DNA of 64,000 nucleotides from Streptomyces celluloflavus (GTDB lineage: Bacteria; Actinomycetota; Actinomycetes; Streptomycetales; Streptomycetaceae), in contig JOEL01000006.1 in NCBI GenBank assembly GCA_000720995.1, forward strand, positions 150,256 through 214,255, read 5' to 3'. The position numbers and the translations under genes are program-made. A model generated the notes under the pieces. It was not told where the DNA came from, did no database searches, and saw only the letters and a program-made list of their open reading frames with translations. Below, one piece after another: positions 699 through 19,867 of this stretch (position 1 is the stretch's first letter; every line of letters begins with the position of its first letter).

Positions 699-1021
699 CA
701 CGGCCCCCAGACATTAGCCGTTCGCTGCCCGATTCACACTCTTTATCATGGTATGCCCGGGTCGGTGAGCGGGCGAGAGCCCTGCCGGGCACGGGCCGGG
801 CACCCCCGCCCACGGCCGACGACACCGGCTCGCCCGTGATCCTTTCGACGGCCGCAACGGGCCCCCGGCCGCCGAGCACGCGACAGGACCCCCGTCCGCC
901 GACGAACGGGGGCCCCGCCACTGCCGGACCACAGCGTGACCGCCTCAGCGGGTCACCAGGCCGGCAGCGGATCAGTACCAGGCCGGCGCCGGACCGGCAG
1001 CGGTCCGGCAGCGGTCCGGAA
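699..1021. other. Intergenic region between protease and slipin genes
   Basis: No gene is supported here. It holds the hairpin at 886-915, a duplicated GGCAGCGGTCC motif close to the protease stop (about 994-1018), and an AT-richer stretch near 715-755 that probably carries the slipin promoter. Confidence 0.5.
886..915 (-). terminator. Hairpin downstream of the streptogrisin gene
   Basis: A 10-bp stem (GGACCCCCGT / ACGGGGGCCC, one wobble) with a 10-nt loop lies about 110 bases after the protease stop. It is a GC-rich hairpin without a clear U tract, as is usual for Streptomyces terminators. Confidence 0.5.
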
Positions 1022-1927
1022 TCAGTAGACGCTCACGCCGTAGGCGCTGAGCGCCTCCGTGACCGGCTGGAAGAACGTCGTGCCGCCGGAGGTGCAGTCG
1101 CCGCTGCCGCCGGAGGTCAGGCCCAGGGCGGTGGTCCCGGAGTAGAGCGGGCCGCCGCTGTCGCCGGGTTCGGCGCAGACGGTGGTCTGGATCAGACCGG
1201 AGACGATGTCGCCGTTGCCGTAGTTGACGGTGGCGTTGAGCCCGGTGACCTTGCCGCTGTGGATGCCGGTGGTGGAGCCGCGGCGGGTGACCGTCTGGCC
1301 GACCGACGGGGTGCCGGCGCTGGTGATGTCCTGGCTGCCGACCGTCCCCTCGTGGCTGACGGAGGAGGTGTACTTCACGATGCCGTAGTCGTTGCCGGGG
1401 AAGCTGGATCCGGTCGTCGGGCCGATGCTCGTGGTGTGCGCCGCGCTGGTGTACCAGGGCGGGTTGCCCTCGGTGCAGTGACCGGCCGTCAGGAAGTAGT
1501 ACGTGTTGCCGCTGCGGACGTTGAAGCCGAGCGAGCAGCGCCAGCTGGGGGCGTAGATGGCGTCGCCGCCGGAGATGAGGGTGCGCAGGGTGCCCGCGGT
1601 GCGCTGGATTTGTACGGCGCCCGCGTTGCCGCCCGCGGCCTGCTCGATCTTGGTGATCTGCTCCTGGGAGACGGTGCGGTCGGCCGTGACGACGAGAGTG
1701 TGCGACTTCTGGTCGACGACCCAGGCGGTGCCGGGGACATCCGCGGCGCGTACCGCGCTGTCGGCGGCGGAGAGCTGGGCGGCGCTGAACGTCTTGGTGG
1801 GGGACGGGTCCTGGGCGTTGGCGGTCGGGATGGCGACGGCTCCGAGGGCCACCAGTCCGGACGCCACGGCGAGCAGCCGGATGCGTCTGGTCACGCCGCT
1901 GCGGGGGGTGGTGCGCTCGTTCCTCAC
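1022..1927 (-). CDS. sprB: Streptogrisin B-like secreted serine protease (S1E), prepro form
   Basis: A 301-residue prepro-protease. A basic N terminus with a hydrophobic stretch forms a signal peptide to about residue 38, residues ~39-117 are the folding propeptide, and the mature enzyme starts at Ile118 (ISGGDAIY), giving 184 residues, almost exactly the length of Streptomyces griseus protease B. The catalytic triad is His150 (LTAGHC), Asp180 (NDYGIV) and Ser257 (GDSGGP). Cys131/Cys151 and Cys251/Cys278 fit the two family disulfides. Start GTG at 1927 is preceded by GGAGG at good spacing, and a longer in-frame extension has no Shine-Dalgarno. It is an extracellular digestive protease of chymotrypsin-like specificity, usually expressed with development. 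The call is very firm, orthology to sprB itself somewhat less so. Confidence 0.93.
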
Positions 1928-2103
1928 GTGATTCCTCCGAGGGGATCGATGGGCCGCCGGTGGGCGACCCGTGAGGCGCAGGCGAAGGGCATCCGGGAAT
2001 CCGCACGTGTCATTTTCCGCATGCCCCTGACAAGCGCTGAGCGGGAGTCTCGGGGACGTCACCCCCTGGGCGCAAGAGGGCCACGCCCGTACACCCGGCC
2101 GGG

Positions 2104-2131
2104 CACCCGGATGTACGCACCCGGATGTACG
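2104..2131. repeat. 14-bp perfect direct repeat upstream of sprB
   Basis: Two adjacent perfect copies of CACCCGGATGTACG (2104-2117 and 2118-2131), starting about 180 bases upstream of the protease start. This could be an operator for a regulator that binds on one helical face, or chance. Confidence 0.5.
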
Positions 2132-2160
2132 CACCACTCATCCGGCCGCGCACGCCGCCG

Positions 2161-2189
2161 CCCCGGCAGCCCCGGCCGGGCTGCCGGGG
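2161..2189 (-). terminator. Terminator of the eight-gene flavin monooxygenase/ABC operon
   Basis: A perfect 12-bp stem (CCCCGGCAGCCC / GGGCTGCCGGGG) with a 5-nt loop, starting 29 bases after the DUF1684 stop. It is the last element of the operon that begins at 11090. Confidence 0.75.
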
Positions 2190-2217
2190 CGGTGTCCTCG
2201 GCGGATGGTGGGTCGGA

Positions 2218-3009
2218 TCAGCGGGCGCGCAGGTCGCGCTCACCGGCCCGCAGCGCGAACGGCAGGGTGTTGCCGGGCGGCGGGAAGGGGCAGATGAAGT
2301 GGTCGGCGAAGGCGCAGGGCGGCAGCACGACACGGTTGAGATCGACGGTGACGGTGCCGTCCTCGGCGGGCGCCGGGGGCCGCAGGAAGCGGAAGCGGTA
2401 GCTCTCGTCGCCGCTGGTGGTGTCGGCGAACACCGCCCACAGGGAGCCGTCGGCCTCGACCGCGGCCTGCACGGTGTGCTCGTCGCCGTCCAGCGTGAAG
2501 GCCAGTTCGCCGGCCAGGCCGAAGCCGCGCCGCTGTCCGTCGGCGTTGGGCACCCGGACGGTGCGCTCCTGCGGATACGGGCGGAAGAGGCCGGGCCGCA
2601 CCCAGCGGGCGTCATACGGGTAGACCTCGATTCCGGTGAACGCGCGGCGGGTCGCGGCGTCCGGGTCGTAGTCGCGTACCGCCCACAGCCCCTCGCGGCG
2701 CAGCACCGGCAGCCGCCGCTCGCCCCACGCCACCCGGGCCCGTGCCGCCGCGCCGTCCTCGCCGAGCCGGACCTCGCCGGACGGCGGTGTGCCGTCGACG
2801 GTGAGCCCGTCGCCCGCGCCGGTCCGCAGCACGACCTGGTCGCCGTCCTCGGTCCAGCGGCCCGGCAGCCCCTCGATCCGGCCGTCGGGATGGTCGGCGA
2901 GCCAGTGGGTGCCGGTCAGGGCGAGCGGTCCGTACGGCCGGGAGACCTTCGCGGTGCGCCGCTCGCGCCAGTCCTGCCACTCCTGAGGTGCTCGTGTACC
3001 GGTGCTCAT
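2218..3009 (-). CDS. DUF1684 family protein
   Basis: 263 residues, cytosolic, with no signal or membrane segment. The C-terminal part carries the DUF1684 signature: a Cys-containing CAFADHFICPFPPPGN block followed by LPFALRAGER, which family members keep almost unchanged. The biochemical function of the family is not established. ATG at 3009 lies 5 bases after the stop of the NtaA-type monooxygenase, so it is the last cistron of that operon and should act on the same substrate class (inferred as S-modified amino acids). The conserved Cys/Pro region could be a binding or catalytic site. Confidence 0.85.
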   Translation of the reverse strand: MSTGTRAPQEWQDWRERRTAKVSRPYGPLALTGTHWLADHPDGRIEGLPGRWTEDGDQVVLRTGAGDGLTVDGTPPSGEVRLGEDGAAARARVAWGERRLPVLRREGLWAVRDYDPDAATRRAFTGIEVYPYDARWVRPGLFRPYPQERTVRVPNADGQRRGFGLAGELAFTLDGDEHTVQAAVEADGSLWAVFADTTSGDESYRFRFLRPPAPAEDGTVTVDLNRVVLPPCAFADHFICPFPPPGNTLPFALRAGERDLRAR

Positions 3010-3014
3010 GGCGG

Positions 3015-4478
3015 TCAACCCTTCTCGGCCGGGCGTACGGGATCCGGCAGTCCCAGATGGGAGCGCAGCGTCCGGCCGCGGTATTCCGTGCGGAACGCGC
3101 CGCGTTCCTGGAGGAGCGGTACGACGCGGTCGACGAAGTCGTCCAGGCCGCCGGGCGTCAGATGCGGGACGAGGATGAACCCGTCGGCGGCGTCGGTGCG
3201 CACGAAGGCGTCCATCTCCGCCGCGACGGCCGCCGGTGTGCCGATGAAGGACTGCCGGCCGGTGGTCTCGATGACGGTTTCGCGCAGGGACAGGCCCTTG
3301 GCCCGGGAGAGCGCCCGCCACCGGTCGGCGACGGCCTTCGGATCGCCGTGCCGGACGCGGCCCTGCGCCAGCTCGCTACCGGGGTCCGGGTCGATGTCGG
3401 GCAGCGGGCCGTCGGGGTCGTAGGAGGACAGGTCGACGCCCCAGATCTGCTCCGCGGCGAGCAGCGCGTTCTGCGGCGAGACCTGGCTGCGGCGGATCTC
3501 GGCGGCGTGCTCCTGGGCCTCGGCCGCGGTGTCGCCGAGGACGACGGTGACACCCGGCATGATCTTGAGGTCGTCGGGCCGCCGGCCGTACGCCGCGAGC
3601 CGGCCCTTGACGTCGGCGTAGAAGGCGCGGCCGGCCTCCGGTCCGCTGTGCCGGGTGAAGATGACATCGGCGGACGAGGCGGCGAACTCCCGGCCCTCGG
3701 ACGAGTCCCCGGCCTGGATGACGACCGGATGGCCCTGGGGGCTGCGCGGGACGGTGAACTCGCCGTGGATGTCGAAGTGCCGGCCGCGGTGCGCGAACGG
3801 CCGGGGCACGCCGTCGTCCGTCCAGGAGTCCCACAACTCCCGTGCGGTGGCGACGAATTCGACGGCCCGGGAATAGCGTTGGGCCCGGTCGAGATAGCCG
3901 CCGCGGCGGAAGTTCTCGCCGGTGAACGCGTCGGAGGTGGTGACGGCGTTCCAGGCGGCCCGGCCGCCGCTGAGGTGGTCGAGGGAGGCCAGCCGGCGGG
4001 CGAGTTCATAGGGCTCGTTGAAGGTGGTGTTCACGGTGGCGGCCAGGCCCAGCCGGTCGGTGACCGCCGCCAGGGCGTTCAGCACGGTGATCGACTCGGG
4101 CCTGCCGAGCACGTCGAGGTCGTGGATACGGCCCTTGTGCTCGCGCAGCCGCAGCCCCTCGGCGAGGAAGAAGAAGTCGAACAGGCCGCGCTCGGCGGTG
4201 TGGGCGAGGTGTTCGAACGAGGAGAAGGCGATCTGGCTCTTCGACCGGTCATCGGCCCAGACGGTGGTGTTGTTGACACCGGGAAAGTGCGCCGCCAGGT
4301 GCATCTGTCTGCGGCCGTGCGGGGGCGCGGTGGTGCGCCCGTACGGGGAGGCGGCGGTGCGGCCGGGTCCGGTGGGTGCCGGGCCACCGGGAGCCGGTCG
4401 GCCGGAGGCCGGTCCGCCAGAGGCCGGTCCACTGGGCGTCGGCCCACTGGGCGTCGGTCCGCTGGGGTTCGGGTTCAT
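3015..4478 (-). CDS. NtaA/SnaA/DmoA-family FMN-dependent monooxygenase
   Basis: 487 residues. The luciferase-like TIM-barrel core begins near Met59 (MHLAAHFPGVNN) and includes RGLFDFFFLAEGLRLRE, an SGGRAAWNAVTT block and VIQAGDSSEG, all diagnostic of the nitrilotriacetate/dibenzothiophene/YtnJ monooxygenase family. These enzymes use FMNH2 supplied by a separate reductase; no such reductase lies in the window. ATG at 4478 overlaps the upstream TGA (TGATG), so the low-complexity first 55 residues, made of SGPTP-like pentads, are probably translated; Met59 (4304) is the alternative start. By position and family it is the counterpart of Bacillus CmoJ/YtnJ, which opens S-modified N-acetylcysteines. 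Substrate is inferred. Confidence 0.9.
   Translation of the reverse strand: MNPNPSGPTPSGPTPSGPASGGPASGRPAPGGPAPTGPGRTAASPYGRTTAPPHGRRQMHLAAHFPGVNNTTVWADDRSKSQIAFSSFEHLAHTAERGLFDFFFLAEGLRLREHKGRIHDLDVLGRPESITVLNALAAVTDRLGLAATVNTTFNEPYELARRLASLDHLSGGRAAWNAVTTSDAFTGENFRRGGYLDRAQRYSRAVEFVATARELWDSWTDDGVPRPFAHRGRHFDIHGEFTVPRSPQGHPVVIQAGDSSEGREFAASSADVIFTRHSGPEAGRAFYADVKGRLAAYGRRPDDLKIMPGVTVVLGDTAAEAQEHAAEIRRSQVSPQNALLAAEQIWGVDLSSYDPDGPLPDIDPDPGSELAQGRVRHGDPKAVADRWRALSRAKGLSLRETVIETTGRQSFIGTPAAVAAEMDAFVRTDAADGFILVPHLTPGGLDDFVDRVVPLLQERGAFRTEYRGRTLRSHLGLPDPVRPAEKG
4362..4466 (-). repeat. 15-bp tandem repeats coding SGPTP-like pentads
   Basis: Codons 5-39 of the NtaA-type monooxygenase consist of degenerating Ser/Gly-Gly/Arg-Pro-Thr/Ala-Pro/Ser units. 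At the DNA level the best copies are adjacent 15-mers of the form CCACTGGGCGTCGGC. This is a likely length-variable tract. Confidence 0.75.
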
Positions 4479-5536
4479 CACGATGCCTCCCGGGCGAGGG
4501 CGTAGCGGTTGGCGGGGCGCGGCAGGCCGAGGTGCTCGCGCAGCGTGGCGCCGGGGTAGAAGCGGCGCAGCAGGCAGCGGTGCTGGAGCACCGGGACGGT
4601 GCCGTCGACGAGCAGGGCGAGGTCGCGCCCGGGGTCCGCGAACCGCAGGTGGAAGCCGTCGGCGGCGCCGTCCGCGTACCAGTCGCCGAGCAGTTCGGCG
4701 AGCCCGACGGCATCGCCCGAGCAGTGCAGTTCGACCGGCAGCGAGGCGAGGACGACCAACTGGCCGGGGTCGCGGCCGTGCGCGCGGGCGAGCTCGCGCA
4801 GTTCGGCGCGGACGGCACCGGCGCTCTGCGGGTCCGCGGCCCGGACCAGCGCGACATCGGCGTACGCGGCGGCCACCTCCCGTACGGCCCGTTCGGCGCC
4901 GGCCGTCTCCCCGGTCGCGTCCACGACCGTGACGGGGTGGCCCTGCGGCGGCCGAGGGACGGTGGAGGGACCGCGGACGGAGAAGTGCGTACCGGCGAAG
5001 TCGACGTAGTGCAGTCGGTCCCGGTCGACGAAGCGGCCGGTCGCCCGGTCGCGGATCTCGGCGCCGTCCTCCCAGCTGTCCCACAGCCGCGCGGCGACGT
5101 CGGCTGCCTCGCCCGCCTCCCGCCACGCCGCGGCGGGCGGCTCGGCGGCCCGGCGGCCGAAGAGCGCGGCCTCGGCCTCGGTGGTGGACACCTCGGCCTG
5201 CCAGCCGGCCCGGCCGCGGCTGACCCAGTCCAGGGTGCTGACGGCGGTGGAGACGTGGAACGGCTCGGTGTGGGTGGTGGTGACGGCCGGGACCAGGCCG
5301 ATCCGCTCGGTCGCGGGGGCGACGCGGGCCAGCACGGCGAGCGCGTCGAGGCCCGGCCGGGTCAGGCTGTCGCCGAGGGTGACGAAGTCGAGGACACCGC
5401 GCTCGGCGAGCCGCGCCAGGCGGACGAAATGCGCCGCGTCGTAGCGGTCGGTGCGGTCCGGCCGGTCCGCGCGGGCGGCCGGCCGCGGGTGCTCCAGCGC
5501 GACGGACAGGTGGAGGGGGCGGGGGGATGCGGACAT
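4478..5536 (-). CDS. LLM-class flavin-dependent oxidoreductase
   Basis: 352 residues forming a second, different luciferase-like monooxygenase. Visible family blocks are LARLAERGVLDFVTLGDSL near residue 40, RIGLVPAVTTTHTEPFHVS, SRGRAGWQAEVS, and a C-terminal FYPGATLREHLGLP motif that matches the end of the neighbouring NtaA-type enzyme (LRSHLGLPDP). It ends in a TGATG overlap with that gene and starts 23 bases after the binding-protein stop. Paired flavin monooxygenases next to a cystine-type ABC transporter also occur in the Bacillus ytmI operon (YtmO plus YtnJ). The two may act on different S-substituents or form one complex. Confidence 0.88.
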   Translation of the reverse strand: MSASPRPLHLSVALEHPRPAARADRPDRTDRYDAAHFVRLARLAERGVLDFVTLGDSLTRPGLDALAVLARVAPATERIGLVPAVTTTHTEPFHVSTAVSTLDWVSRGRAGWQAEVSTTEAEAALFGRRAAEPPAAAWREAGEAADVAARLWDSWEDGAEIRDRATGRFVDRDRLHYVDFAGTHFSVRGPSTVPRPPQGHPVTVVDATGETAGAERAVREVAAAYADVALVRAADPQSAGAVRAELRELARAHGRDPGQLVVLASLPVELHCSGDAVGLAELLGDWYADGAADGFHLRFADPGRDLALLVDGTVPVLQHRCLLRRFYPGATLREHLGLPRPANRYALAREAS

Positions 5537-5559
5537 GGGTGAGCCTTCCGTGCGCCGGG

Positions 5560-6528
5560 TCAGTTCGCTGTCTTGGGCAGGCCGGGCGGGTTGATCCGCG
5601 AGGTCTTCAGGGCCTCGCCGCCGAGCCCCCAGCGCGCCAGCACCTTGCCGTACCGGCCGTCGTCGATGACCTTCCGGAGTGCGGCGGCATAGGCACCGAC
5701 CAGGCCGCTGCCCTTCTTCGTGGTGGCGGCGATCTCGCCCTGGAGGCCGCGGCCGCCGCCGGAGAAGGTCCCGGCGACCTCGGTCAGGCCCGCGGTGCCG
5801 ACGTGGTAGGCGACGGACGGGTTCGGTCCGAAGTAGCCGTCGATCCGGCCCGATTGCAGGGCGAGGTAGGTGTCGGAGCTCTTCTGGAAGTACTTGATGT
5901 CGACCGGTTTACGGCCGGCCTTCTCGTTCTCCTCGCTCCACTCGACGAGGATCTTCTCCTGGTTGGTGCCGGAGCCGACCGCGACGGTCCGGCCCGCGAC
6001 GTCCTTCGCGCCGCGCACCCGCCAGCCGCTGCCCTTCTTCGTCTCCAGCGCCAGCTCGTCCAGCCGGTAGGTCGCGAAGTCGTACTTCTCCTTGCGCTCC
6101 TCGGTGACGGTGACGTTGGAGAAGACCGCGTCGAGTCTGCCGCTGTCCAGGCCGACGAAGAGGTTCTCCCAGGACAGCGGGGTGAACTCGGCCTTCAGGC
6201 CGAGGGTGTCGGCGACGAGGGTGGCGAGGTCCTCCTCGACGCCGATGAGGGTCCGGTCGTCGGAGGCGTAGAAGGTCAGCGGCGGTGAGCTGTCGGCGCC
6301 CACGCCGATGCGCAGCACACCGGCGTCCCGGACCCGGGCGGGCACCAGGGCGGCGAGCGCCGGGTCCCGCTGCCCGCGGACGCGGTGCTGGTCGGGGCCG
6401 GTATTGATCTTCGACCCCGGGGGGCCCGCGGCGACGCTCCCGGTCACCGCGTCACCGCTGCCGCAGGCGGTGAGCAGTACGGATCCGGCGGCGAGCGCGA
6501 GGGCGGCGGTCAGAGTGCGGCGGTTCAA
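5560..6528 (-). CDS. Polar amino-acid ABC transporter substrate-binding lipoprotein
   Basis: 322 residues with a lipoprotein signal: basic MNRR, hydrophobic core, lipobox LLTAC with Cys22. The rest is a family-3 periplasmic-binding fold; GVLRIGVGADSSPPLTF begins the mature domain, and LDAVFSNVTVTEERKEKYDF plus the VAVGSGTNQEKIL hinge block are typical of cystine/glutamine-type binding proteins. It sits directly downstream of the ATPase and permease genes. A second lipoprotein of equal length but different sequence lies at 12338, so this transporter probably uses two receptors, as Bacillus TcyJ and TcyK do. Confidence 0.92.
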   Translation of the reverse strand: MNRRTLTAALALAAGSVLLTACGSGDAVTGSVAAGPPGSKINTGPDQHRVRGQRDPALAALVPARVRDAGVLRIGVGADSSPPLTFYASDDRTLIGVEEDLATLVADTLGLKAEFTPLSWENLFVGLDSGRLDAVFSNVTVTEERKEKYDFATYRLDELALETKKGSGWRVRGAKDVAGRTVAVGSGTNQEKILVEWSEENEKAGRKPVDIKYFQKSSDTYLALQSGRIDGYFGPNPSVAYHVGTAGLTEVAGTFSGGGRGLQGEIAATTKKGSGLVGAYAAALRKVIDDGRYGKVLARWGLGGEALKTSRINPPGLPKTAN

Positions 6529-6585
6529 CTCGGGGCTCCTGGGGATGAGGGGGCCGGGGACGGCCGGACGGGGGACGGCGGCACG

Positions 6586-7383
6586 TCAGAGGACCTTGGA
6601 CAGAAAGGACTTGGTGCGCTCGTGGCGGGGGTGGTCGAGGACCTGGCCGGGCGGCCCCTGTTCGACGATCCGGCCGCCGTCCATGAAGACGACGGTGTCG
6701 GCGACCTCGCGGGCGAAGCCGATCTCATGGGTGACGACGATCATGGTGGTGCCCTGCCGCGCCAGGTCCTTGATGACCGCCAGGACCTCGCCGACCAGCT
6801 CCGGGTCGAGGGCCGAGGTCGGCTCGTCGAAGAGCAGCAGCTTCGGTTCCAGGGCGAGCGCGCGGGCGATGGCGACCCGCTGCTGCTGACCGCCGGAGAG
6901 CTGCCGCGGATAGGCGTCGGCCTTGTCGGCGAGGCCCACCCGGTCCAGCAGGGCGCGCGCGGTCGCGAGGACGTCCTTCCGCGGGCGGCGCAGCGCGGCG
7001 AGGGGCGCCTCGGTGATGTTGTCCAGGACCGTCAGATGCGGGAAGAGGTTGAAGTTCTGGAAGACGAAGCCGATATGGGTGCGCTGCTTGAGGATCTCCC
7101 GTTCGCGCAGTTCGTAGAGCTTGTCGCCGGAGCGCCGGTAGCCGACCAGCGCGCCGTCCACGCTGATCCGGCCGCTGTCGACCTTCTCCAGGTGGTTGAT
7201 GGTGCGCAGCAGGGTGGACTTGCCGGAGCCGGAGGGGCCCAGGACGACCGCGACCTCACCGGTGCGCACCTGGAGGTCGATACCGCGCAGCACCTCCAGC
7301 GCGCCGAAGCTCTTGTGGACGGCGCGGACCTCGACCATCGGCCGGGTTCCGGCGGGCGGCGCGGGGGTGGTGGCGGTGCTCAT
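6586..7383 (-). CDS. Amino-acid ABC transporter ATP-binding protein
   Basis: 265 residues. Walker [10 protein letters not shown] at ~49-57, Q-loop in [13 protein letters not shown], signature [16 protein letters not shown], Walker [13 protein letters not shown] and H-loop VVTHE are all intact. The sequence is of the GlnQ/TcyN polar amino-acid type. ATG at 7383 overlaps the permease stop by four bases (ATGA). It energises the paired permeases at 7380 and 10176; only one ATPase gene serves both, implying a homodimeric motor on a heterodimeric channel. Confidence 0.95.
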
Positions 7384-8279
7384 CGGGTGGCTCCCTTGGC
7401 GAAGTGGCGTTCGACGTAGTGCTGGAGGACGGAGAGCACGGTGGTCAGCAGGACGTACCAGGCGGTGGCCACCATCAGCAGCGGGACGACCCGGCCGTTC
7501 CGTCCGTAGATGACCTGGACCTGGTAGAAGAGTTCGCCGATCGCCATGACGGAGACGATCGAGGTGCCCTTGAAGAGGGAGATGACCTCGTTGGCGGCGT
7601 TCGGCAGGATCGCGCGCATCGCCTGGGGCAGCACGATGCGGCGCAGCTGCCGCGGCCTGGGGATGCCCAGCGCGGCCGCGGCCTCCAACTGGCCGCCGTC
7701 CACGGCCAGTACCCCGCCGCGCACGATCTCCGCGGCGTACGCGGCCTGGTGCAGGGCGAGGCCGAGTACCGCCGCGCTCATCGCGCCGACCAGGCCCATG
7801 GTGTCGAAGGAGAAGAAGCCGGGGCCGAAGGGGATACCGAAGTCCAGGCGCTTGTAGAGGTAGGCGAGGTTGAACCAGAACAGCAGCTGGACGATGAGCG
7901 GGATGGAGCGGAAGGCCCAGATGTAGCCGAAGGCGACGGCCCTGAGGAAGGGGCTCGCGGACAGCCGCATGAAGGCCAGCACGATCCCGAGGGCGAAGCC
8001 GAGGACGGTGCCGTAGACGGTGAGCTGGAGGGTGACCCAGACCGCGCGGACGACGGTCTCCGCGGTGAAGAACTGCGCGAACACCCCCCATTCCCAGGCC
8101 GGGTTGGTGAGCAGGCCGTGCGCGAACTGGGCGAGCAGCACGGCCGTCACCACGATGGCGGCCCACCGCCAGGGGTGGCGTACGGGGACGACCTTCAGCG
8201 CCGCCGGGTCGTCGTCCGCCGGCGGCCCGGTCCGCCGCGGGGCGGTGCGGTCGAGGGGTGGATCACTGGTCAGCGGCAT
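7380..8279 (-). CDS. Amino-acid ABC transporter permease (first of pair)
   Basis: 299 residues with a ~55-residue cytosolic N terminus, then several membrane helices. The His/Glu/Met-type permease region reads [29 protein letters not shown], and the EAA loop [23 protein letters not shown]. The N-terminal [11 protein letters not shown] motif recurs as KVVPVRRTGQW in the other permease (10176), showing they are paralogues of one transporter. ATG at 8279 lies within the 3' end of the upstream FAD-protein gene (17-base overlap), indicating tight translational coupling. Confidence 0.93.
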
Positions 8280-10179
8280 GGGAGTCCTCGGGAGTGGGTG
8301 CGGTGCGGACGGCGGCGGGGACCGGCGGGGCGGGGTGAGAACCGGCGGGCGGTGGGGTCCGGTCCCGCAGGAAGGTGAGCAGCGCCCGCGCGGTCGCGTC
8401 GTTCTGCCGGAAGGCGGGGGCATTGGTACGGGGGCGGGCGAAGGCGCCGCCGGAGCGGGCGTCGGTGTGCGGGCCGAGGGCGAAGCGGCGGGGGTGCGGG
8501 CGGCCCGCCCGGTCCAGGATCCGGCCGTCGGCGGCGGCCACGGCCAGCAGTCCGGCGGCCGTGGACGCGGCGCCTTCGGAGTGCAGTCCGCGCAGCAGGG
8601 CGTCCCGGGTGCGCGCGACCGTCGGTTCCGGCAGCCGCGCCTCCACCAGCGCGCGGGCCTCGACCGACGCCCCCGGCACGCTGGCGCTCTCGGCGCGGAA
8701 GACCCCGCGCCGTTCGTCGGCGGTGACGGTGGTGTCCGCGCCGAGGAAGCGCACCACCCCGGCCCGGGAGAGCGCGAGCAGCTGGCGCAGCCGGGGGCCG
8801 GGCGGTCCGGAGGCGAGGTAGCTGAAGAAGCCGTGCCACCAGGGGCCGCGGTCGCCGATGCGGATCAGTTGCCCGTACACCGACAGCAGGGCGTGGAAGA
8901 CCGCCAGGTCGGGGCTGTGCGCGGGGTCGTGGCGGCGGGCGAGATCGGCCTCGATGTAGCGGCGCAACCCGTCTTGCAGGGCGTCGGCGTCGCGGTAGCG
9001 GACCCCGGCCAGCGGATGGTCCAGGGCGGCCAGGTCGAGGCGGTCGGCGGGGTCCGGGACCGAGGCGCCGACCAGGGCCTGGAGTGCGGCGCTGCCCGGG
9101 TCGGCGGCGGCGTACTTCTCCTCGAAGTCGGGCCAGTTGACGCGGGTGCGCTCCGGATGGGCGGTGAACAGCCGGTGGTAGTGGGCGAAGCCCAGTTCCT
9201 TGTCGATCAGCGGCCGGATGTCGCGCTCGAAGTCGATGCCGTCGGGCCGGGCGAGCAGCGCGTCGAGCTGCGCGGGCCCGAAGAAGCGGGGCAGCGGCGG
9301 CCGTTCGCCGGGCAGCTCGTAGCCGATCTTGGAGTGGTAGGGCACTCCGCGCCGCGATCCGACGTGCAGGACGGGTTCGCGCCCCGAGGGCCGGTAGGTC
9401 AGCTCGCCGCCGGCGCCGGTCGTGTAGCTGCCGCCGCGCCCCTCGGTGAGCAGCACCATCAGGTCGACGAAGGCCAGCCCGAAGCCGCGGACGAGCACCG
9501 GCTCGCCGGGGCGCAGCGCGGTGAGATCGCTGTCGGCGGTGAAGGCGGGCGGCAGATGGGTCAGCCCGTGCCGGTCGGCGAAGGCGGTCAGCGCCCGCTG
9601 CTCGGGCGGCGGGGTCGACTCCAGATGGCCGAGGGTGAGCACGACGAGGTCGGCGACGAGCGGTGTGGGGCACCCCGCCAGCCACACCTGTTGCCGTCCG
9701 TCGCGCGCTCCGGCGAGGCGTACGGCGGTGCGCCGGTGTTCGTGGACGGCGATGCGCGGGGGCAGCGCGGCCACCGACCGCTCGTACACCCAGCTCAGAT
9801 ACGCGCTCTGCAGCCGCCGGGCGGCGAAGTCCTGCGGTCCCAGGGCCGCGAGGTCCGCGGCGAGGCCGGGTGCGACGCGTATCCCGCCGTCGCGCACCGC
9901 GCGGGCCCAGGCGGCGAGCGAGGGGCCGGGCCGCACCGGGCCCTCCTGCCGCACGGTCTCGTCGGTGAACATGGTGACGTCCTCGGCCAGGGAGTTCATC
10001 CACAGCAGCGGGGACTGGTCGTGGCGCCAGATGCGGCCGCCGCCGGGCGGATGCGGATCGACGAGATGCAGGTCCAGCGGCCGGTCGCCGTACAGTTCGG
10101 CGGCGTTGGCGGCGATGCGCTCGACCAGTCCGGTGCCGCGCGGCCCGGCTCCCACGATCACCACGGAGGGCCTCGTCAT
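8263..10179 (-). CDS. FAD/NAD(P)-binding protein (PF13454-like), embedded in the ABC operon
   Basis: 638 residues. The first strand-turn-helix is a dinucleotide site, VVIVGAGPRGTG (residues ~5-16), followed by HLVDPHPPGGGRIWR and WMNSLAEDVTMF, features of the FAD-NAD(P)-binding family related to N-hydroxylating monooxygenases. A second nucleotide-binding element may be VLVRGFGLAFVDLM. The catalytic activity of this family is mostly unknown. It lies exactly between the two permease genes with ATGA and 17-base overlaps, so it is an integral member of the operon. It could oxidise the imported amino acid, or supply reducing power; the first fits the family better. No membrane segment is seen. Confidence 0.85.
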   Translation of the reverse strand: MTRPSVVIVGAGPRGTGLVERIAANAAELYGDRPLDLHLVDPHPPGGGRIWRHDQSPLLWMNSLAEDVTMFTDETVRQEGPVRPGPSLAAWARAVRDGGIRVAPGLAADLAALGPQDFAARRLQSAYLSWVYERSVAALPPRIAVHEHRRTAVRLAGARDGRQQVWLAGCPTPLVADLVVLTLGHLESTPPPEQRALTAFADRHGLTHLPPAFTADSDLTALRPGEPVLVRGFGLAFVDLMVLLTEGRGGSYTTGAGGELTYRPSGREPVLHVGSRRGVPYHSKIGYELPGERPPLPRFFGPAQLDALLARPDGIDFERDIRPLIDKELGFAHYHRLFTAHPERTRVNWPDFEEKYAAADPGSAALQALVGASVPDPADRLDLAALDHPLAGVRYRDADALQDGLRRYIEADLARRHDPAHSPDLAVFHALLSVYGQLIRIGDRGPWWHGFFSYLASGPPGPRLRQLLALSRAGVVRFLGADTTVTADERRGVFRAESASVPGASVEARALVEARLPEPTVARTRDALLRGLHSEGAASTAAGLLAVAAADGRILDRAGRPHPRRFALGPHTDARSGGAFARPRTNAPAFRQNDATARALLTFLRDRTPPPAGSHPAPPVPAAVRTAPTPEDSHAADQ

Positions 10180-11090
10180 CGGGCACCGGCCGTACCGCGC
10201 GCGTAGTGCCGCTCGACGTAGTGCTGGCCGACGCCGAGCACCGAGGTGACCACGACGTACCAGATGGTGGCGACCAGCAGCAGCGGGATGACCTGGTAGG
10301 TGCGGTGGTAGACCAGCTGGACGGAGTAGAGCAGGTCCTGTACGGCGATCACGCTGACGATGGAGGTGCCCTTGAGCGTGCCGATCAGCATGTTGCCGGC
10401 CGGTGGCACGATCGCCCGCATCGCCTGCGGCAGCACGATGCGGCGCAGCCGCCGCCAGGCGCCGAGCCCGAGCGCCTGGGCGGCCTCCAGCTGGCCCTTC
10501 TCGACGGAGAGGAGGCCGCCGCGGACGACCTCGGCGGCGTACGCGGCCTCGTGCAGGGTGAGGCCGATGATGGCGATGGTGACCGGGCCGAGCAGGTTCA
10601 CGGTCTTGACGGTGAGGAGTTCCGGGCCGAACGGGATGCCGATGCCGAGTTGCGGATAGAGCGCGCCGATGTTGAACCAGAACAGCAGCTGGACCAGGAC
10701 CGGCATCGAGCGGAAGAGCCAGATGTAGCCCCAACTGACGCTCCGCAGCACCTTGTTGGACGACATCCGCAGCACTGCCAGCAGGGTGCCCAGCACAAAG
10801 CCGAGCGCCGTCACCAGCACGGTCAGCCACAGCGTGAGCCCGAGGCCGCGCAGTACGGCGGTGGTGGTGAAGTACTCGCCGACGACGCCCCACTGGAAGG
10901 CGTCGTTGCGGACGAGGGAGTTGACGTCCATGGCGAGCAGCAGCACCACGGCGGCGGCGGTCCACTGGCCGGTGCGGCGCACGGGGACGACCTTGAGGGC
11001 GTCCGCGGCGGGTGGTGCGCCAGGAGGGTCGAGGGGGCGGTGATCCGGTGACGCGGACGGATCGGACAACACTGCGTCGTTCACAGGCAT
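10176..11090 (-). CDS. Amino-acid ABC transporter permease (second of pair), first gene of operon
   Basis: 304 residues, paralogous to the permease at 7380: same KVVPVRR start of the first hydrophobic segment, [33 protein letters not shown], and the EAA loop [26 protein letters not shown] at 11090 gives an N terminus like its paralogue; longer in-frame starts run into the promoter region. The stop overlaps the FAD-protein ATG (ATGA). It heads an eight-gene leftward operon that ends at the hairpin at 2161. Confidence 0.92.
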   Translation of the reverse strand: MPVNDAVLSDPSASPDHRPLDPPGAPPAADALKVVPVRRTGQWTAAAVVLLLAMDVNSLVRNDAFQWGVVGEYFTTTAVLRGLGLTLWLTVLVTALGFVLGTLLAVLRMSSNKVLRSVSWGYIWLFRSMPVLVQLLFWFNIGALYPQLGIGIPFGPELLTVKTVNLLGPVTIAIIGLTLHEAAYAAEVVRGGLLSVEKGQLEAAQALGLGAWRRLRRIVLPQAMRAIVPPAGNMLIGTLKGTSIVSVIAVQDLLYSVQLVYHRTYQVIPLLLVATIWYVVVTSVLGVGQHYVERHYARGTAGAR

Positions 11091-11834
11091 GCGCGAAGGC
11101 TCCGTGGATTCAACGATCTGACACGGGAGTTGAGCGCCTTCACACAGGCGGAACGGGTCGCGCCCCTCAGCACGACCGCCCCTTGAGGCTATGAGGGGCA
11201 GGCTATGGGGTGAACACGCCTCATTGTCAATGCCGTCCACACTGTGAGCGAGGGAGCGCTGCGCGGTTGACGTGGAAACGGATGCCTGTTCCACTTGGTC
11301 GCATGTATGCATGGCAGCGGCTGGTCACCCGCGACCACATCGACCTCGGTCGTGTGTGGTCGTCTTCCTGTTGAGCTGACGCCCTGCCCTGAAGCCCGCC
11401 GCCGATAAGGCCGGGCCGTTTCGCGGTTCTCCTCTCCCGTTACCGCGCGCCTTCACACTTCGCGCCGCCACTCGGCGCACCCCTCCCCTCGCCTGTCCCG
11501 GAACCCGGGCGCCCCGGCGTCCCCCGGTTCCTCCTTGTCCACCCTGTCCACGGCTGTTCCCGCCTCCACGGGTCGCTGTTCGCTGTTCACGTTCACTGTT
11601 TCCCCGTTCCGCCGGCACGCTCGAAGAAGGGCGCGGTATGCGCTTCGGCGTCTTGACCTTGACCGACCACGTCCCGGACCCACCGTCCGGGCACCGCTTC
11701 ACCCCGTACGCCACCGGTCCGTACGCGCCCGGTCCGTGCGGACCCGCCCCGCGCGTATGCCGCCGCCCGGCCGCCGGACTCGCGCTATCCACAAGGGAGT
11801 TGGGCTCCCCCGCGGCCGACGCCGGGGCGGTCCG
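11091..11834. other. Divergent control region between the two transport operons
   Basis: This 744-base region separates the leftward operon from the rightward GNAT/binding-protein pair. The left third is AT-richer and holds the candidate leftward promoter and a GCATGTATGCATG near-palindrome around 11301-11314. The right third contains a short ORF at 11638-11838, listed separately, that looks like the start of a luciferase-like monooxygenase. No regulator gene is present. Confidence 0.5.
11200..11230 (-). promoter_or_regulatory. Candidate promoter of the permease-to-DUF1684 operon
   Basis: On the minus strand TTGACA (11225-11230) is followed 19 bases later by TAGCCT (11200-11205), a plausible sigma-HrdB-type pair about 110 bases upstream of the first start codon. 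The motif GGCTATGRGG occurs twice just downstream (around 11187 and 11201) and may be a regulator site. Not verified. Confidence 0.4.
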
Positions 11835-11838
11835 GTGA
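11638..11838 (+). pseudogene. Possible remnant of an LLM flavin monooxygenase N terminus (66 aa ORF)
   Basis: The ORF begins MRFGVLTLTDHVPDPPSGHR, which resembles the first strand of luciferase-like monooxygenases (MRFG...DHxPDPxTGxR). After about residue 23 the sequence turns into Pro/Gly/Arg-rich material with no family resemblance. A Shine-Dalgarno-like AAGGGCG precedes the ATG, and the stop TGA overlaps the GTG start of the acetyltransferase (GTGA). It may be a decayed gene whose body was deleted, a leader peptide coupled to the downstream gene, or chance. The monooxygenase resemblance is from memory of the family, not a search. Confidence 0.4.
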
Positions 11839-12341
11839 CCGGCGCGCCCCGGCCGCCGTACGCGGCCGCCCCGACCGTCCTGCACACCACCGTCACCGAT
11901 CCGCTCGCCCGCCCACTGCTGGACGAACTCACCCACGAGTACCGCACCCGGTACGAGAAGCCCGTCGATCTGAGCCTGGAGTACCCGCCCGAGGAGTTCA
12001 CCCCGCCGCGGGGCGCGTTCCTGCTGCTCCTGGCGGACGGCGGTCCGGTCGCCGGCGGTGCGTACCGCCGCTACGACGCGCACACCGCCGAGTTCAAACG
12101 GATCTGGACGCACTCCGCGCACCGCCGCCGCGGTCTGGCCCGGCGGGTGCTGGACGTCCTGGAACGGGACGCCGCCGACCGCGGCTACACCCGTGTCTAC
12201 CTCACGACCGGCCCCCGCCAGCCCGAGGCCAAGGGGCTCTATCTCGCCGCGGGCTACCGCCCGTTGTTCGACCCGACCGCCGACCCGGAGACGATCGGCC
12301 CGCTGCCGTTCGAGAAGCACCTGGAGATCCCCCGCCCATGA
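11835..12341 (+). CDS. GNAT-family N-acetyltransferase
   Basis: 168 residues from GTG at 11835. The acetyl-CoA pyrophosphate loop is HRRRGLARR (residues ~96-104), followed by the helix VLDVLERDAADRGYTRVYL and the terminal EAKGLYLAAGYRP block of GNAT enzymes. Its stop overlaps the next ATG (ATGA), so it is made with the binding lipoprotein. N-acetyltransferases (SnaA, YxeL-type) act first in Bacillus salvage of S-substituted cysteines, protecting the amine before S-dealkylation; that is the role proposed here. A free-standing detoxifying acetyltransferase remains possible. Confidence 0.85.
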   Translation: MTGAPRPPYAAAPTVLHTTVTDPLARPLLDELTHEYRTRYEKPVDLSLEYPPEEFTPPRGAFLLLLADGGPVAGGAYRRYDAHTAEFKRIWTHSAHRRRGLARRVLDVLERDAADRGYTRVYLTTGPRQPEAKGLYLAAGYRPLFDPTADPETIGPLPFEKHLEIPRP

Positions 12342-13306
12342 CCACCACCACGCCCCGCGACCGGGCGGCGCGCGCCCCGCGGCCCCGCACCACCGCGCCG
12401 CGCGCCGCCGCCCTCCTCGCCACCGCCGTCCTGGCGCTCACCGCCTGCGGCTCGGGCGGTGCGGCCGGCGCGGCGGGACCGGCCGCCGCCGAGGTCCCGA
12501 CGACGGACGTGGTCTCCGGCGTCACGGAGGACCCGGCCGCCGCGAAACTGCTGCCCGCGGACGTCCGCGCCCGGGGCACCCTCGCCCTGGCCGCCAGCGT
12601 CGGCACCCCGCCGGGCGCCACCTATCTCCCCGACGGCACGACCGTGGCCGGCCAGGACATCGACTTCGCGGACGCGGTCGGCAAGGTCCTCGGCCTGAAG
12701 CTCACCCGCGAGGTGGCGAGCTTCGAGGCGATCCTGCCCGCCCTCGACAGCGGCAAGTACGACCTGGCCACCGGCAACTTCGGCGTCACCGAGGAGCGCC
12801 GCAAGACCATCGACTTCGTCACGTACATCAACGACGGCCAGGGCTTCGCGGTCCGCGCGGACAGCCCGCTGAAGAAGGTCACCGCGCTGCCGCAGCTGTG
12901 CGGACTGACCGTCGCCACCGGCGCCGGCACCACCTTCGAGGCGACGCTGGAGGACAACCGGCACCGGTGCCGGGACGCCGGAAAGCCGCCGTACGACGTC
13001 AAGACCTACGCCGACCAGGGCGCACTGTGGATCTCGCTGCAGCAGGGGCGCAGCGATGTGGTGATGAGCACCATCAACGGGCTGCGCTACGCCGTGCGGC
13101 AGCAGCAGGGCCTGCGGTTCCTCAACGAGTTCAAGCGGCTGGACGTCGGCTTCGCGTTCAAGAAGGGCTCCCCGCTGGCGCCCGCCGTCCAGGCCGCGGT
13201 CAACCGGCTGAAGGCGGACGGCACCTACGACCGGATCCTGAAGAAGTGGGGCACCGGCGCCTCGGCCGTCACCACCTCGCGGATCAGCCCGCCGGAGATC
13301 CGCTGA
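12338..13306 (+). CDS. Second polar amino-acid ABC substrate-binding lipoprotein
   Basis: 322 residues with a long basic N region, hydrophobic core and lipobox LTAC (Cys37). The mature family-3 binding fold shows DIDFADAVGKVLGLKL, YDLATGNFGVTEERRKTIDF and FKKGSPLAPAVQAAVNRLK near the end. It lacks a permease and ATPase of its own and faces the operon that has both, so it probably serves that transporter with different ligand preference from the lipoprotein at 5560. It overlaps the acetyltransferase stop by four bases. Confidence 0.92.
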   Translation: MTTTTPRDRAARAPRPRTTAPRAAALLATAVLALTACGSGGAAGAAGPAAAEVPTTDVVSGVTEDPAAAKLLPADVRARGTLALAASVGTPPGATYLPDGTTVAGQDIDFADAVGKVLGLKLTREVASFEAILPALDSGKYDLATGNFGVTEERRKTIDFVTYINDGQGFAVRADSPLKKVTALPQLCGLTVATGAGTTFEATLEDNRHRCRDAGKPPYDVKTYADQGALWISLQQGRSDVVMSTINGLRYAVRQQQGLRFLNEFKRLDVGFAFKKGSPLAPAVQAAVNRLKADGTYDRILKKWGTGASAVTTSRISPPEIR

Positions 13307-13562
13307 CCCCGGTCCGGGCGGCCCGTCCGCACCGGCCCCGATCCCACCGGCCGCGCACCGCCACCGCCCGTCCGCACCGACCGTGACACCCGTCGTACTG
13401 TCAGTTCGCCACGGGGGCGCGTGCGCTGACACCGCGCCACCCACTTTGCACCAGATGTGTCACGAACCCCCCGTGCGGCGGGTATCCGCTTGGCGCTCGC
13501 TCCGCATCATGAACGACCATAGGGAGACGAAACACAGAAACCGCGGGTGAGAGGAGGCGTCC

Positions 13563-14021
13563 ATGGGATCGGTGCGCAGGGCGAGTGCCTGGCTTGGGCT
13601 CGTCGACGACAACGATGACGAGCGCTACTACGACGACGACTACGCCGAGGGGTCCGGTTCCGCGTCCACGGACTCGGCCGGCAGCTCCTGGGTGACCGAC
13701 CCACGGGCCCGGGTGACCGACGAGGCGGCCCAGGACCAGGGCACCCGTATCGCCACGGTCACCCCGGACGGCTTCCGGGACGCCCGCGGTATCGGTGAGC
13801 TGTTCCGGGAGGGCGTCCCGGTGATCGTCAACCTGACGGCCATGGAGTCCTCCGACGCCAAGCGCGTGGTGGACTTCGTCGCCGGGCTGACCTTCGGGCT
13901 GCGCGGTTCGATCGAGCGGGTCGCCCCCCGGGTGTTCCTGCTCACCCCGCCGGACTACAAGGTGCTCAACGGCGAGGCCGCCGGTCACCGCAGGACCGGC
14001 GGCTTCTTCAACCAGAACTGA
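13563..14021 (+). CDS. sflA: SepF-like protein (SflA type)
   Basis: 152 residues. The N-terminal ~50 residues include a strongly acidic, Tyr-rich tract ([16 protein letters not shown]); residues ~58-135 form the SepF (DUF552) domain with [32 protein letters not shown] and [12 protein letters not shown]. Start ATG is preceded by GAGAGGAGG. True SepF in streptomycetes is longer and lies in the dcw cluster beside ftsZ. This isolated, shorter copy fits SflA, one of two SepF-like proteins reported in S. coelicolor to influence FtsZ/DivIVA placement and hyphal branching. Family certain, SflA identity inferred from length and neighbourhood. Confidence 0.85.
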
Positions 14022-14073
14022 GGCAGGGCCGCTCACCGGAGGCCGGCCGTCGGCCCGCGCCCGGCGCCACCGC

Positions 14074-15270
14074 TCAGCGGAAGGCGTCGAGACCGGTGAG
14101 CGCCTTGCCCAGTACCAGCTGATGCATCTCGACGGTGCCCTCGTAGGTGAGCACCGATTCCAGATTCGTCGCATGCCGCATGACGGGGTATTCGAGCGAG
14201 ATCCCGTTGGCGCCCAGGATCGTCCGGGCGGTGCGGCAGATCTCGATCGCCTCGCGGACGTTGTTCAGCTTGCCGAAGCTGATCTGCTCCGGGCGCAGCT
14301 TCCCGGCGTCCAGACGCCGCCCCAGATGGTGGGCGAGCAGGATTCCCTTGTGCAGTTCGACCGCCATGTCGGCGAGCTTGGCCTGGGTGAGCTGGAAGCC
14401 GCCGATGGGCTTGCCGAACTGCTCGCGCGTCCCGGCGTACTCCAGCGCCGCCTCGAAGCAGGACCGCGCAGCCCCCATCGCGCCCCACACGATCCCGTAG
14501 CGGGCGTGGCTCAGGCAGTGCAGCGGACCGCGCAGCCCGGTGACCTCCGGCAGTACCGCGTCGGCCGGCAGCCGCACCTCGTCCAGGACGAGTTCGCTGG
14601 TGACCGAGGCGCGCAGGGACCATTTGCGGGTGATCTCGGGGGCCGAGAACCCCGGGGTGTCGGTGGGTACGACGAAACCCCGGATGCCGTCGTCGGTCCG
14701 GGCCCACACCACCGCGACACCGGCCACCGAGCCGTTGGTGATCCACATCTTGCGCCCGGTCAGCACCCAGTCGGTGCCGTCCTTCCGGGCGTGGGTGCGC
14801 ATCCCGGCGGGGTCGGAGCCGTGGTCGGGCTCGGTCAGCCCGAAGCAGCCGATGACCTCGCCGGCCGCCATCCTCGGCAGCCACTCCTGCTTCTGCTCCT
14901 TGGAGCCGAAGCGCCAGATCGCGTACATGGCGAGCGAGCCCTGCACGGAGACCAGCGAGCGGATGCCGGAGTCGGCGGCCTCCAGCTCCAGGCAGGCCAG
15001 GCCGTACTGGACGGCGGAGGCGCCCGCGCAGCCGTAGCCGGTCAGGGACATGCCGAGCGCGCCCAGGGAGCCCAGCTCCCGGGCCAGTTCGCGGATGCCG
15101 GGGAGTTCGCCGCGCTCGTACCAGTCGGCGATATGCGGCAGGACACGGTCGGCGGCCCACCGGCGGACGGTGCCGCGGACGGCGCGGTCCTCGTCGGTGA
15201 GCAGGTCGTCCAGGCCCAGCGGGTCGCTGGGGTCGAACGGCGGAAGCGTCGAGGGCGGCTGTGCGGGCAT
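14074..15270 (-). CDS. Acyl-CoA dehydrogenase, glutaryl-CoA dehydrogenase-like
   Basis: 398 residues. Signature 1 is visible as CFGLTEPDHGSDPAGM, and the flavin-binding MWITNGSVAGVAVVWART follows. The C-terminal TYEGTVEMHQLVLGKALTG contains the catalytic Glu (about residue 377) in the arrangement used by glutaryl-CoA dehydrogenases. Such enzymes oxidise and decarboxylate glutaryl-CoA in lysine/tryptophan breakdown, passing electrons to ETF. ATG at 15270 has GGAGG seven bases upstream; the in-frame upstream stretch is short and lacks one. The gene stands alone, so the exact substrate is not fixed. Confidence 0.92.
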   Translation of the reverse strand: MPAQPPSTLPPFDPSDPLGLDDLLTDEDRAVRGTVRRWAADRVLPHIADWYERGELPGIRELARELGSLGALGMSLTGYGCAGASAVQYGLACLELEAADSGIRSLVSVQGSLAMYAIWRFGSKEQKQEWLPRMAAGEVIGCFGLTEPDHGSDPAGMRTHARKDGTDWVLTGRKMWITNGSVAGVAVVWARTDDGIRGFVVPTDTPGFSAPEITRKWSLRASVTSELVLDEVRLPADAVLPEVTGLRGPLHCLSHARYGIVWGAMGAARSCFEAALEYAGTREQFGKPIGGFQLTQAKLADMAVELHKGILLAHHLGRRLDAGKLRPEQISFGKLNNVREAIEICRTARTILGANGISLEYPVMRHATNLESVLTYEGTVEMHQLVLGKALTGLDAFR

Positions 15271-15431
15271 GGCGGGGCCTCCGGCAGGTTCGGCGCACAC
15301 AAAACTAGCAGTGGTAGTTGGCGTGCCGACGGTACGGCCCCCGGCGCCGTCCGGGCAAGGGTCACCACCGCGCGGCGGGGCGCGGCGGACCCGGGGGGAC
15401 GGAAGGGGAGGAGAGGAACGTCCGGCGGCCG

Positions 15432-17060: not shown

Positions 17061-17259
17061 GCACGTACCTCCTGTCATGCTCTCGCGGCCACTGATCAGG
17101 GCACGAAAACGCCCCGGGGGAACCGGCGGCACGGGCGAGTTGAGACGTCAGACTACGCGAGTCCCCAGGGGCGCCGCGTGGCTCACCTCACGATGAGACG
17201 CGCATCGCAGGGCTCCGCGTTCCCCCACCGGCCCTCGCCACGCGCTCTTCGGTCACCTG

Positions 17260-17265
17260 GATAAT
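17260..17265 (+). promoter_or_regulatory. Candidate -10 of a leaderless mannosyltransferase transcript
   Basis: GATAAT lies 7 bases before the ATG at 17273 and no Shine-Dalgarno is visible, the arrangement of leaderless Streptomyces transcripts. No good -35 is apparent. Confidence 0.3.
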
Positions 17266-17272
17266 CGACCGG

Positions 17273-18725: not shown

Positions 18726-18732
18726 CGATTGA

Positions 18733-19761: not shown

Positions 19762-19808
19762 CCGCCCCCTGACCGCGGGGCCGGTACGCACACCCGCTTC
19801 CCCGCATC

Positions 19809-19850: not shown

Positions 19851-19867
19851 GCCGTACACCGCCGCCG

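Follow-up and report, generated by a model that had tools for sequence, protein, structure and literature searches.

A conserved Streptomyces gene cluster with a Cys-ending leader ORF and an unusual flavoenzyme, a candidate organosulfur salvage system

Introduction

In Bacillus subtilis, the ytmI operon of S-alkylcysteine salvage joins a two-receptor Tcy-like ATP-binding cassette (ABC) transporter to a GNAT acetyltransferase and an NtaA-family luciferase-like monooxygenase (LLM), and the chemistry of its CmoO and CmoJ enzymes has been described (PMC10863075). The Bacillus yxe (scm) operon for S-(2-succino)cysteine also carries a GNAT, an ABC transporter and an LLM, and follows a strategy of acetylation, bond breakage and deacetylation (PMC9706529). 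Here we analyze a gene cluster of Streptomyces celluloflavus (assembly GCA_000720995.1, contig JOEL01000006.1; source genome, 8.68 Mb) that lies at positions 2218–13306 of the window, by which we mean the whole stretch of 64,000 nucleotides under study. The cluster has a similar set of transporter, acetyltransferase and monooxygenase genes and an apparent organosulfur salvage logic, but a PF13454 flavoenzyme and a DUF1684 protein are built into it and a leader open reading frame (ORF) ending in Cys stands at its divergent promoter. We propose, with confidence that is about evenly balanced, that it is an organosulfur salvage cluster for the cysteine-controlled import and oxidative C–S cleavage of an S-substituted cysteine or mercapturate. 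A survey of open-access literature, at the level of titles and abstract openings, found no description of such a cluster.

Three further systems resemble individual parts of it. NtfO1–NtfO2, for which structure 7E36 is available, is an LLM heterodimer of adjacent gene products, in which flavin mononucleotide (FMN) was docked into NtfO2 and the residues of that subunit were tested by mutation (PMC8027225). Among PF13454 proteins, the L-aspartate N-hydroxylase 8CP2 makes nitrosuccinate with NADPH and O2, and amino-group oxygenation is likewise the reaction of FzmM, which acts on aspartate, and of PcxL, which acts on 2-aminoethylphosphonate (PMC10404684). Finally, cysteine-responsive small ORFs (sORFs) have been reported in mycobacteria (Canestrari 2020, as cited in PMC13236596); the available part of a study of the S. 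lividans transcriptome gives eight amino-acid leader peptides, among which none of the present type was seen (PMC8079986).

Results and discussion

A Cys-ending leader ORF recurs upstream of sulfur genes

The ten cluster genes were translated and scanned with Pfam and NCBIfam profiles. Gene families, operon layout, conservation, residue losses and the distribution of the leader are read directly from sequence. Eight of the genes form a minus-strand operon running from 11090 to 2218, while the plus strand carries the leader ORF, then a GNAT gene and then SBP2, which encodes a solute-binding protein (SBP). Both operons diverge from about 11.1–11.3 kb; a preliminary description of the window had drawn them as facing each other. 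The profile scans bore out the gene types and places given there (two SBPs, two permeases, an ATPase, two LLMs, GNAT, DUF1684 and PF13454), to which the conserved leader ORF is an addition.

The leader (11303–11374, plus strand; MYAWQRLVTRDHIDLGRVWSSSC and a stop), a putative cysteine-responsive leader peptide, comprises 23 codons, of which Cys is the last. Homologs are present in 112 of 115 related loci and occupy the divergent intergenic region in every locus where they could be placed. All 109 distinct sequences have TGT as the Cys codon in the same position, and the stop follows immediately 3′ of it in 79 of them; across the ten cluster genes Cys is encoded nine times by TGC and never by TGT. 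A DNA pattern for the leader core was found in 84 of 150 genomes and a reversed control pattern in 0 of 150. A moderately conserved TTGACG-like box lies shortly 5′ of the leader ATG, and this closeness suggests that the leader mRNA is a leaderless transcript. In its short length, terminal Cys, promoter-like TTGACG box near the ATG and sulfur-gene neighbors, the leader resembles the polycysteine leaderless sORF attenuators of mycobacteria, from which it differs in having a single Cys codon (Canestrari 2020, as cited in PMC13236596). A hairpin within the leader codons is on average more stable than synonymous recodings (mean z −1.64, with 59 of 109 below −1), but we claim no covariation because the codon before His tracks the Ser codon after Trp only partly; the fold of 11290–11560 is unremarkable (z = −1.19).

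The strongest evidence for sulfur control is provided by the genes downstream of the leader rather than by its profile score. Away from PF13454 orthologs we listed 27 further leader copies and fetched 20, and in 16 of the latter the gene immediately 3′ encodes an SsuD-type LLM (11 cases, one of them interrupted, at L205; locus and genome labels are our own), SsuE (2), a GNAT (2) or a family-3 SBP (1). Both SsuE proteins score over the cut-off, one GNAT and the SBP were identified by Pfam, one LLM was checked separately and 10 of the 11 by coordinates, and the remainder were named by eye. L201, L202 and L204 correspond to the chromosomal position of the present cluster but lack PF13454, and in L202 an LLM2-like gene lies 3′ of the leader; at L198 no gene type was assigned after the leader. 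Three of the seven unfetched copies (G017, G028 and G095) have an SsuD-type LLM nearby, and the genome of the window itself holds a further leader copy before an SsuD-type LLM elsewhere (L187). In the same genome, profile NF042934 gave seven matches below E 0.01, four of them over the cut-off (the peptide of L080 was not read), and these precede genes for cysteine dioxygenase, a ThiS-like protein with cysteine synthase, sulfite/nitrite reductase, an ABC permease, a rhodanese, a flavin reductase (L081) and an SDF symporter. Judging from such neighbors, the cluster would be under sulfur control.

We also considered whether an SsuD-type LLM is universal in the system, and rejected this, as copies with at least 75% identity occur in only 26 of 150 genomes. 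Two leader operons, L192 and L194, contain a GNAT, transporter genes and a gene for an M19 membrane dipeptidase, assigned by Pfam in L192 and by similarity, by eye, in L194; M19 membrane dipeptidases are the enzyme type that trims Cys-Gly conjugates. The L192 GNAT (7630–8181, minus strand) has an N-terminus like that of an SsuD-type LLM (MSVEFLGTAATDDGS), as though what is left of such an LLM gene had been joined to it.

The gene set travels together as a mosaic

The cluster is no chance assembly: an ortholog of its PF13454 gene with at least 57% identity is present in 73 of 150 Streptomyces genomes, and the neighboring genes recur. Partners were counted in two sets of loci. The first comprises 34 loci centered on PF13454 orthologs, taken from two batches (20 from one, and 14 out of 18 from the other), with partner matches covering at least 60% of the query; it leaves out L062 (a second stretch of the L024 genome), L044, L058, L059 and L060, which are more distant, and the other paralogous loci. 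The second comprises 80 loci, the best among a total of at least 499 related stretches, with matches covering at least 50% of the query. Of these 80 loci 61 have full flanks, and they are mostly from Streptomyces, with two from Actinacidiphila and two bearing Kitasatospora names. The presence of PF13454 in every locus is uninformative because this gene was the search query. In the 34 and 80 loci, respectively, we found the ATPase in 26 and 49, LLM2 in 25 and 62, SBP2 in 24 and 40, permease 2 in 24 and 42, LLM1 in 22 and 52, DUF1684 in 20 and 50, permease 1 in 19 and 24, SBP1 in 19 and 24, and GNAT in 13 and 11 (10 of the 61 loci with full flanks). Across the phylum, PF13454 matches at 1e-60 were found in 11 of 396 genomes, from three genera, and G157, which belongs to another family, carries GNAT, PF13454, permease 1, ATPase, SBP1, DUF1684, LLM2 and LLM1 together. 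The gene set travels together but as a mosaic, in which many loci lack GNAT, parts of the transporter or LLMs.

The two LLM proteins probably form one enzyme

LLM1 (3015–4478, minus strand) belongs to the NtaA/DmoA family of FMN-dependent monooxygenases (TIGR03860, 408.2 bits; cut-off 279.7) and is likely a catalytic subunit; LLM2 (4478–5536, minus strand) reaches 223.5 bits against the same profile, below the cut-off. Among solved structures LLM1 scores 281 bits with YtnJ/CmoJ, 263 with NtfO2 (7E36 chain B), 261 with 3SDO and 243 with BdsA, and as these scores lie close together, YtnJ orthology is not established: of the earlier label "NtaA/YtnJ-type", the family stands, but LLM1 is about equally close to YtnJ and to other solved relatives. 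Its FMN-site equivalents T101, T133, Y155 and Q203 are kept, while R takes the place of H151 in the window and in the majority of orthologs. LLM2, by contrast, appears degenerate. In the rows aligned it has lost the T133 and Y155 equivalents and the QAGDS-x2-GR-x-FAA motif, with T101 kept in most rows. It matches NtfO1 (7E36 chain A) across residues 31–345; its best E-values, to 3SDO and YtnJ, cover a shorter part. A predicted model of LLM2 (pLDDT 80) resembles the whole LLM family, and among the 50 structural matches listed 7E36_A has the highest identity and TMt and YtnJ the best E-value.

Because LLM2 has lost FMN-site residues and matches NtfO1, we consider a heterodimer with a single active site more probable than two monooxygenases acting in turn, and LLM2 is probably the partner of LLM1. 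As in NtfO1–NtfO2 and StmO1–StmO2 (7E36), two adjacent overlapping genes would supply an NtaA-type subunit that is FMN-competent and a shorter one that is degenerate; unlike those pairs, the LLM genes here lie in an apparent sulfur-import operon and not in a polyketide biosynthetic setting, and the heterodimer is a prediction. The residue losses and the full-length match to NtfO1 also speak against LLM2 as an equivalent of YtmO/CmoO, which the preliminary description had taken it to be. The NCBIfam scan gave no match of LLM2 to TIGR03558, which we take to be the family of YtmO, and two TIGR03558 proteins over the cut-off are encoded elsewhere in the genome.

These results bear on the possibility that the cluster is a true counterpart of the ytmI operon, with obligatory N-acetylation, sulfoxidation by LLM2, C–S cleavage by LLM1 and subsequent deacetylation, and with the PF13454 and DUF1684 proteins as accessories. 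GNAT does adjoin SBP2 in the window and accompanies most of the set in G157, YtnJ is the best solved match of LLM1, and the top matches of the transporter are mostly to cystine/Tcy families. We nevertheless judge this scenario unlikely, given an LLM2 without FMN-site residues, an LLM1 almost as close to NtfO2, 3SDO and BdsA as to YtnJ, and a GNAT confined to 13 of 34 and 11 of 80 loci. The GNAT counts, which refer to the loci and not to the rest of those genomes, likewise do not support N-acetylation as a conserved step, and a mere accessory status of PF13454 and DUF1684 is not supported. What persists of the comparison is a sulfur-scavenging logic, seen in the leader and in its copies before SsuD-type LLM, SsuE and GNAT genes; the one-to-one mapping of parts does not. 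We do not file the cluster as a ytmI-operon member because a CmoO-type LLM, a conserved acetyltransferase and a deacetylase are missing from it, and regard it instead as a variant that would work like an S-alkylcysteine salvage operon with a different enzyme set, in which LLM2 is degenerate and GNAT optional. From the yxe (scm) operon it differs in having two LLM subunits, a PF13454 and a DUF1684 protein, and no M20 deacetylase in the cluster.

The flavoenzyme retains its core but has lost the aspartate pocket

The PF13454 protein (8263–10179, minus strand; 132.4 bits), which carries a domain binding flavin adenine dinucleotide (FAD) and NAD(P), is homologous over nearly its full length to the L-aspartate N-hydroxylases (nitrosuccinate synthases) FzmM, CreE and 8CP2, the last being its sole solved relative (315 bits, E 1.1e-92). 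The minus-strand operon has the order permease 2, PF13454, permease 1, ATPase, SBP1, LLM2, LLM1, DUF1684, with overlaps at 10176–10179, 7380–7383 and 4478, and because several junctions overlap we place the PF13454 gene inside the transporter operon, a setting that differs from those of FzmM, CreE and 8CP2. Among orthologs with the residue present, R13 is kept in 112 of 112, W51 in 113 of 113 and N62 in 113 of 113, and the R577 equivalent is kept wherever the row reaches it (115 orthologs); judged by these residues, the monooxygenase core is intact. The substrate site is different. In all 115 orthologs the equivalent of R266 is K, that of R409 is L and that of R412 is Y; R276 is replaced by P in 113 and A in 2, N413 by G, A or V, and R416 by I, V, T, S, M, P, A or L, such that none of the cluster R276, R409, R412, N413 and R416 is kept in any ortholog. 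Among 13 non-orthologous rows used for comparison (five "AspNH-like" rows, picked for showing the motif, were not used), the R409/R412 pair is kept in 8, including the paralog L043 from the genome of the window, and is not kept in L044, L045, L049, L058 and L059. L043 (G000:C5:24196-26067) is a second PF13454 gene with an intact R409/R412/N413/R416-type motif, and this genome may therefore encode an aspartate N-hydroxylase at another place.

Since the acidic-pocket residues are replaced in all 115 orthologs, aspartate is an unlikely substrate; a substrate with a neutral side chain, for which some carboxylate contacts are kept, is plausible. Under the salvage proposal the enzyme would oxygenate sulfur. 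One may postulate instead that the cluster scavenges a sulfonated amino compound such as cysteate, homocysteate or taurine, with the PF13454 enzyme oxygenating the amino group and the LLMs cleaving the C–S bond. This would accord with the leader copies before SsuD-type LLM and SsuE genes, and the substrates on record for PF13454 enzymes are acidic amino compounds (PMC10404684). It is improbable, however, given that the Arg-rich pocket for the acidic group has been lost in every ortholog and that LLM1 is of the NtaA/DmoA type and not the SsuD type.

The DUF1684 protein carries a conserved cysteine pair

The DUF1684 protein (2218–3009, minus strand; 263 aa; PF07920, 135.6 bits) contains a C232-x7-C240 motif, and each of the 23 other rows, from 22 distinct loci of which two are distant, has the Cx7C pair. 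Structural matches of its AlphaFold model (pLDDT 90) at E ≤ 0.001 are solely haloarchaeal relatives, one of which is a mercury complex, and a haloarchaeal member with Cx7C has been placed in a thiol-relay group (PMC9426492). As CmoJ releases sulfenic acid (PMC10863075), a redox or thiol-carrying role for DUF1684 would fit.

A proposed salvage pathway

We infer the substrate, the order of steps and every catalytic role in the following scheme, along with the sulfur control and the heterodimer. Low cysteine would be sensed by ribosomes on the Cys-ending leader ORF, raising expression, and the Tcy-like transporter with its two receptors would import an S-substituted cysteine that is zwitterionic or N-acylated. 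The PF13454 flavoenzyme, a single component using NADPH and FAD by analogy with 8CP2, might then act in place of CmoO as the first oxygenating enzyme, with sulfur as the most likely site. An LLM1:LLM2 heterodimer, supplied with FMNH2 by a reductase encoded elsewhere, would break the C–S bond like CmoJ and YxeK, and the Cx7C pair of DUF1684 could reduce or carry the sulfenate or thiol product. The leader-preceded flavin reductase L081, elsewhere in the genome, is a fair candidate for the FMNH2 supplier. GNAT (11835–12341, plus strand; PF00583, 54.6 bits; start uncertain between ATG at 11757 and GTG at 11835) would N-acetylate where needed and be dispensable.

A more specific version can be offered only tentatively. 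Mycothiol-producing bacteria release mercapturates (N-acetyl-S-conjugates of cysteine) when they detoxify electrophiles, through the amidase Mca, and the cluster may conceivably recycle these by PF13454 S-oxygenation, a heterodimeric C–S monooxygenase and a DUF1684 thiol relay. Substrates of this kind would already bear the acetyl group on import, so that a GNAT that is merely optional would be accounted for, and the M19 dipeptidase genes in the leader operons L192 and L194 can be cited alongside. If this were true, the nitrosuccinate-synthase family would gain, in the PF13454 enzyme, its first member to oxygenate sulfur rather than nitrogen.

Several observations weigh against the salvage proposal. 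The leader of the window falls under both NCBIfam cut-offs (NF042936, E 1.2e-4, 21.6 bits against 45; NF042934, E 0.034, 13.8 bits against 27), reaches no better than E 1.78 in the whole-genome NF042934 search, and at E ≤ 10 the search also matches 10 of 14 unrelated control genomes, with 0 over the cut-off. Of the 112 leader loci, 47 (among them L101, L105, L116 and L160) show no SBP2 3′ of the leader within the at most 4 kb examined; 45 of the 47 also lack GNAT, and three keep an SBP2 fragment. SBP2 presence changed 15 times on the tree, at least 12 times by starred branches, while the leader stayed (123 proteins, a quick method without a mixture model, 6 rows left out). Eight such loci were inspected closely, and what comes next to the leader on its 3′ side there is an SBP2 remnant, a SepF-like gene or a DUF5685-like gene in convergent orientation (names by eye). 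Retention of the leader in these 47 loci sets it apart from the mycobacterial sORFs, and simple cis-attenuation fails to explain its conservation; the divergent PF13454 operon may be its target or its partner, or the leader may itself encode a functional small protein. Regarding the enzymes, the characterized PF13454 relatives are N-hydroxylases and not S-oxygenases, many loci keep PF13454 and LLMs without transporter genes, and DUF1684 is present in 36 of 149 genomes from throughout the phylum, where the PF13454 ortholog is rare. An M20 deacetylase was sought with ten queries from the same genome and gave 0 matches at 1e-6 in 116 loci and the window, as did the one flavin reductase query, in agreement with the preliminary description, which had placed both enzymes outside the window; M20 matches elsewhere in the genome number 14. 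An SsuE query matched just two of the 116 loci and window (L038 and L073), and no SsuE over the cut-off was found in the genome of the window.

The least probable explanation, which we consider very doubtful, is a small biosynthetic or detoxification cluster in which an N-hydroxylase and a heterodimeric LLM (cf. the antibiotic enzymes StmO1–StmO2) act on an imported precursor: both enzyme families have characterized natural-product members (PMC10404684, PMC8027225), but the leader is of a sulfur type, a transporter lies in the operon, the ortholog is present in 73 of the 150 Streptomyces genomes sampled, and no other biosynthetic genes were seen in the loci read in detail.

The salvage proposal, for its part, would bring three poorly understood types into one sulfur pathway (PF13454 outside natural-product pathways, DUF1684 and degenerate LLM subunits), around a central gene present in about half of the Streptomyces sampled. 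Were it correct, the N-hydroxylase family would extend to organosulfur chemistry, DUF1684 would gain a context, the leader sequence could mark other cysteine-controlled Streptomyces genes, and the cluster would be relevant to the recovery of sulfur from detoxification products by soil actinobacteria.

Transporter genes and minor features

The transporter consists of the family-3 lipoproteins SBP1 (5560–6528, minus strand; PF00497, 86.3 bits) and SBP2 (12338–13306, plus strand; PF00497, 93.8 bits), both SBP_bac_3 proteins with lipoprotein-type N-termini, an ABC ATPase (6586–7383, minus strand), and permeases 1 (7380–8279) and 2 (10176–11090), both minus-strand PF00528 (BPD_transp_1) proteins. 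The best NCBIfam matches are TcyN for the ATPase (NF008428, 325 bits; cut-off 406), a cystine SBP for SBP1 (NF008426, 102.6 bits; cut-off 312), a cystine permease for permease 1 (NF011680, 140 bits; cut-off 300), and EhuC and a cystine permease, each below cut-off, for permease 2; those of SBP2 are not cystine-specific. The top matches are mostly to TcyN and cystine families, in line with the Tcy-like transporter of the earlier description, but all fall under their equivalog cut-offs.

An Rfam scan of window positions 1–20000 matched no family. A short ORF at 11638–11838 (plus strand), starting MRFGVLTLTDHVPDPPSGH, bears a weak likeness to the LLM N-terminus in L041 and L042 and is possibly the stump of a lost monooxygenase gene. 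As an identification this was rejected: 18–19 residues are 53–56% identical to the L041/L042 LLM (E 0.09–0.11), and a better match (E 0.012) came from a meaningless stretch of L060. A DUF5685-like gene (named by eye), not seen beside the cluster of the window, adjoins the leader or SBP2 in L027, L105, L112, L116, L133 and L160.

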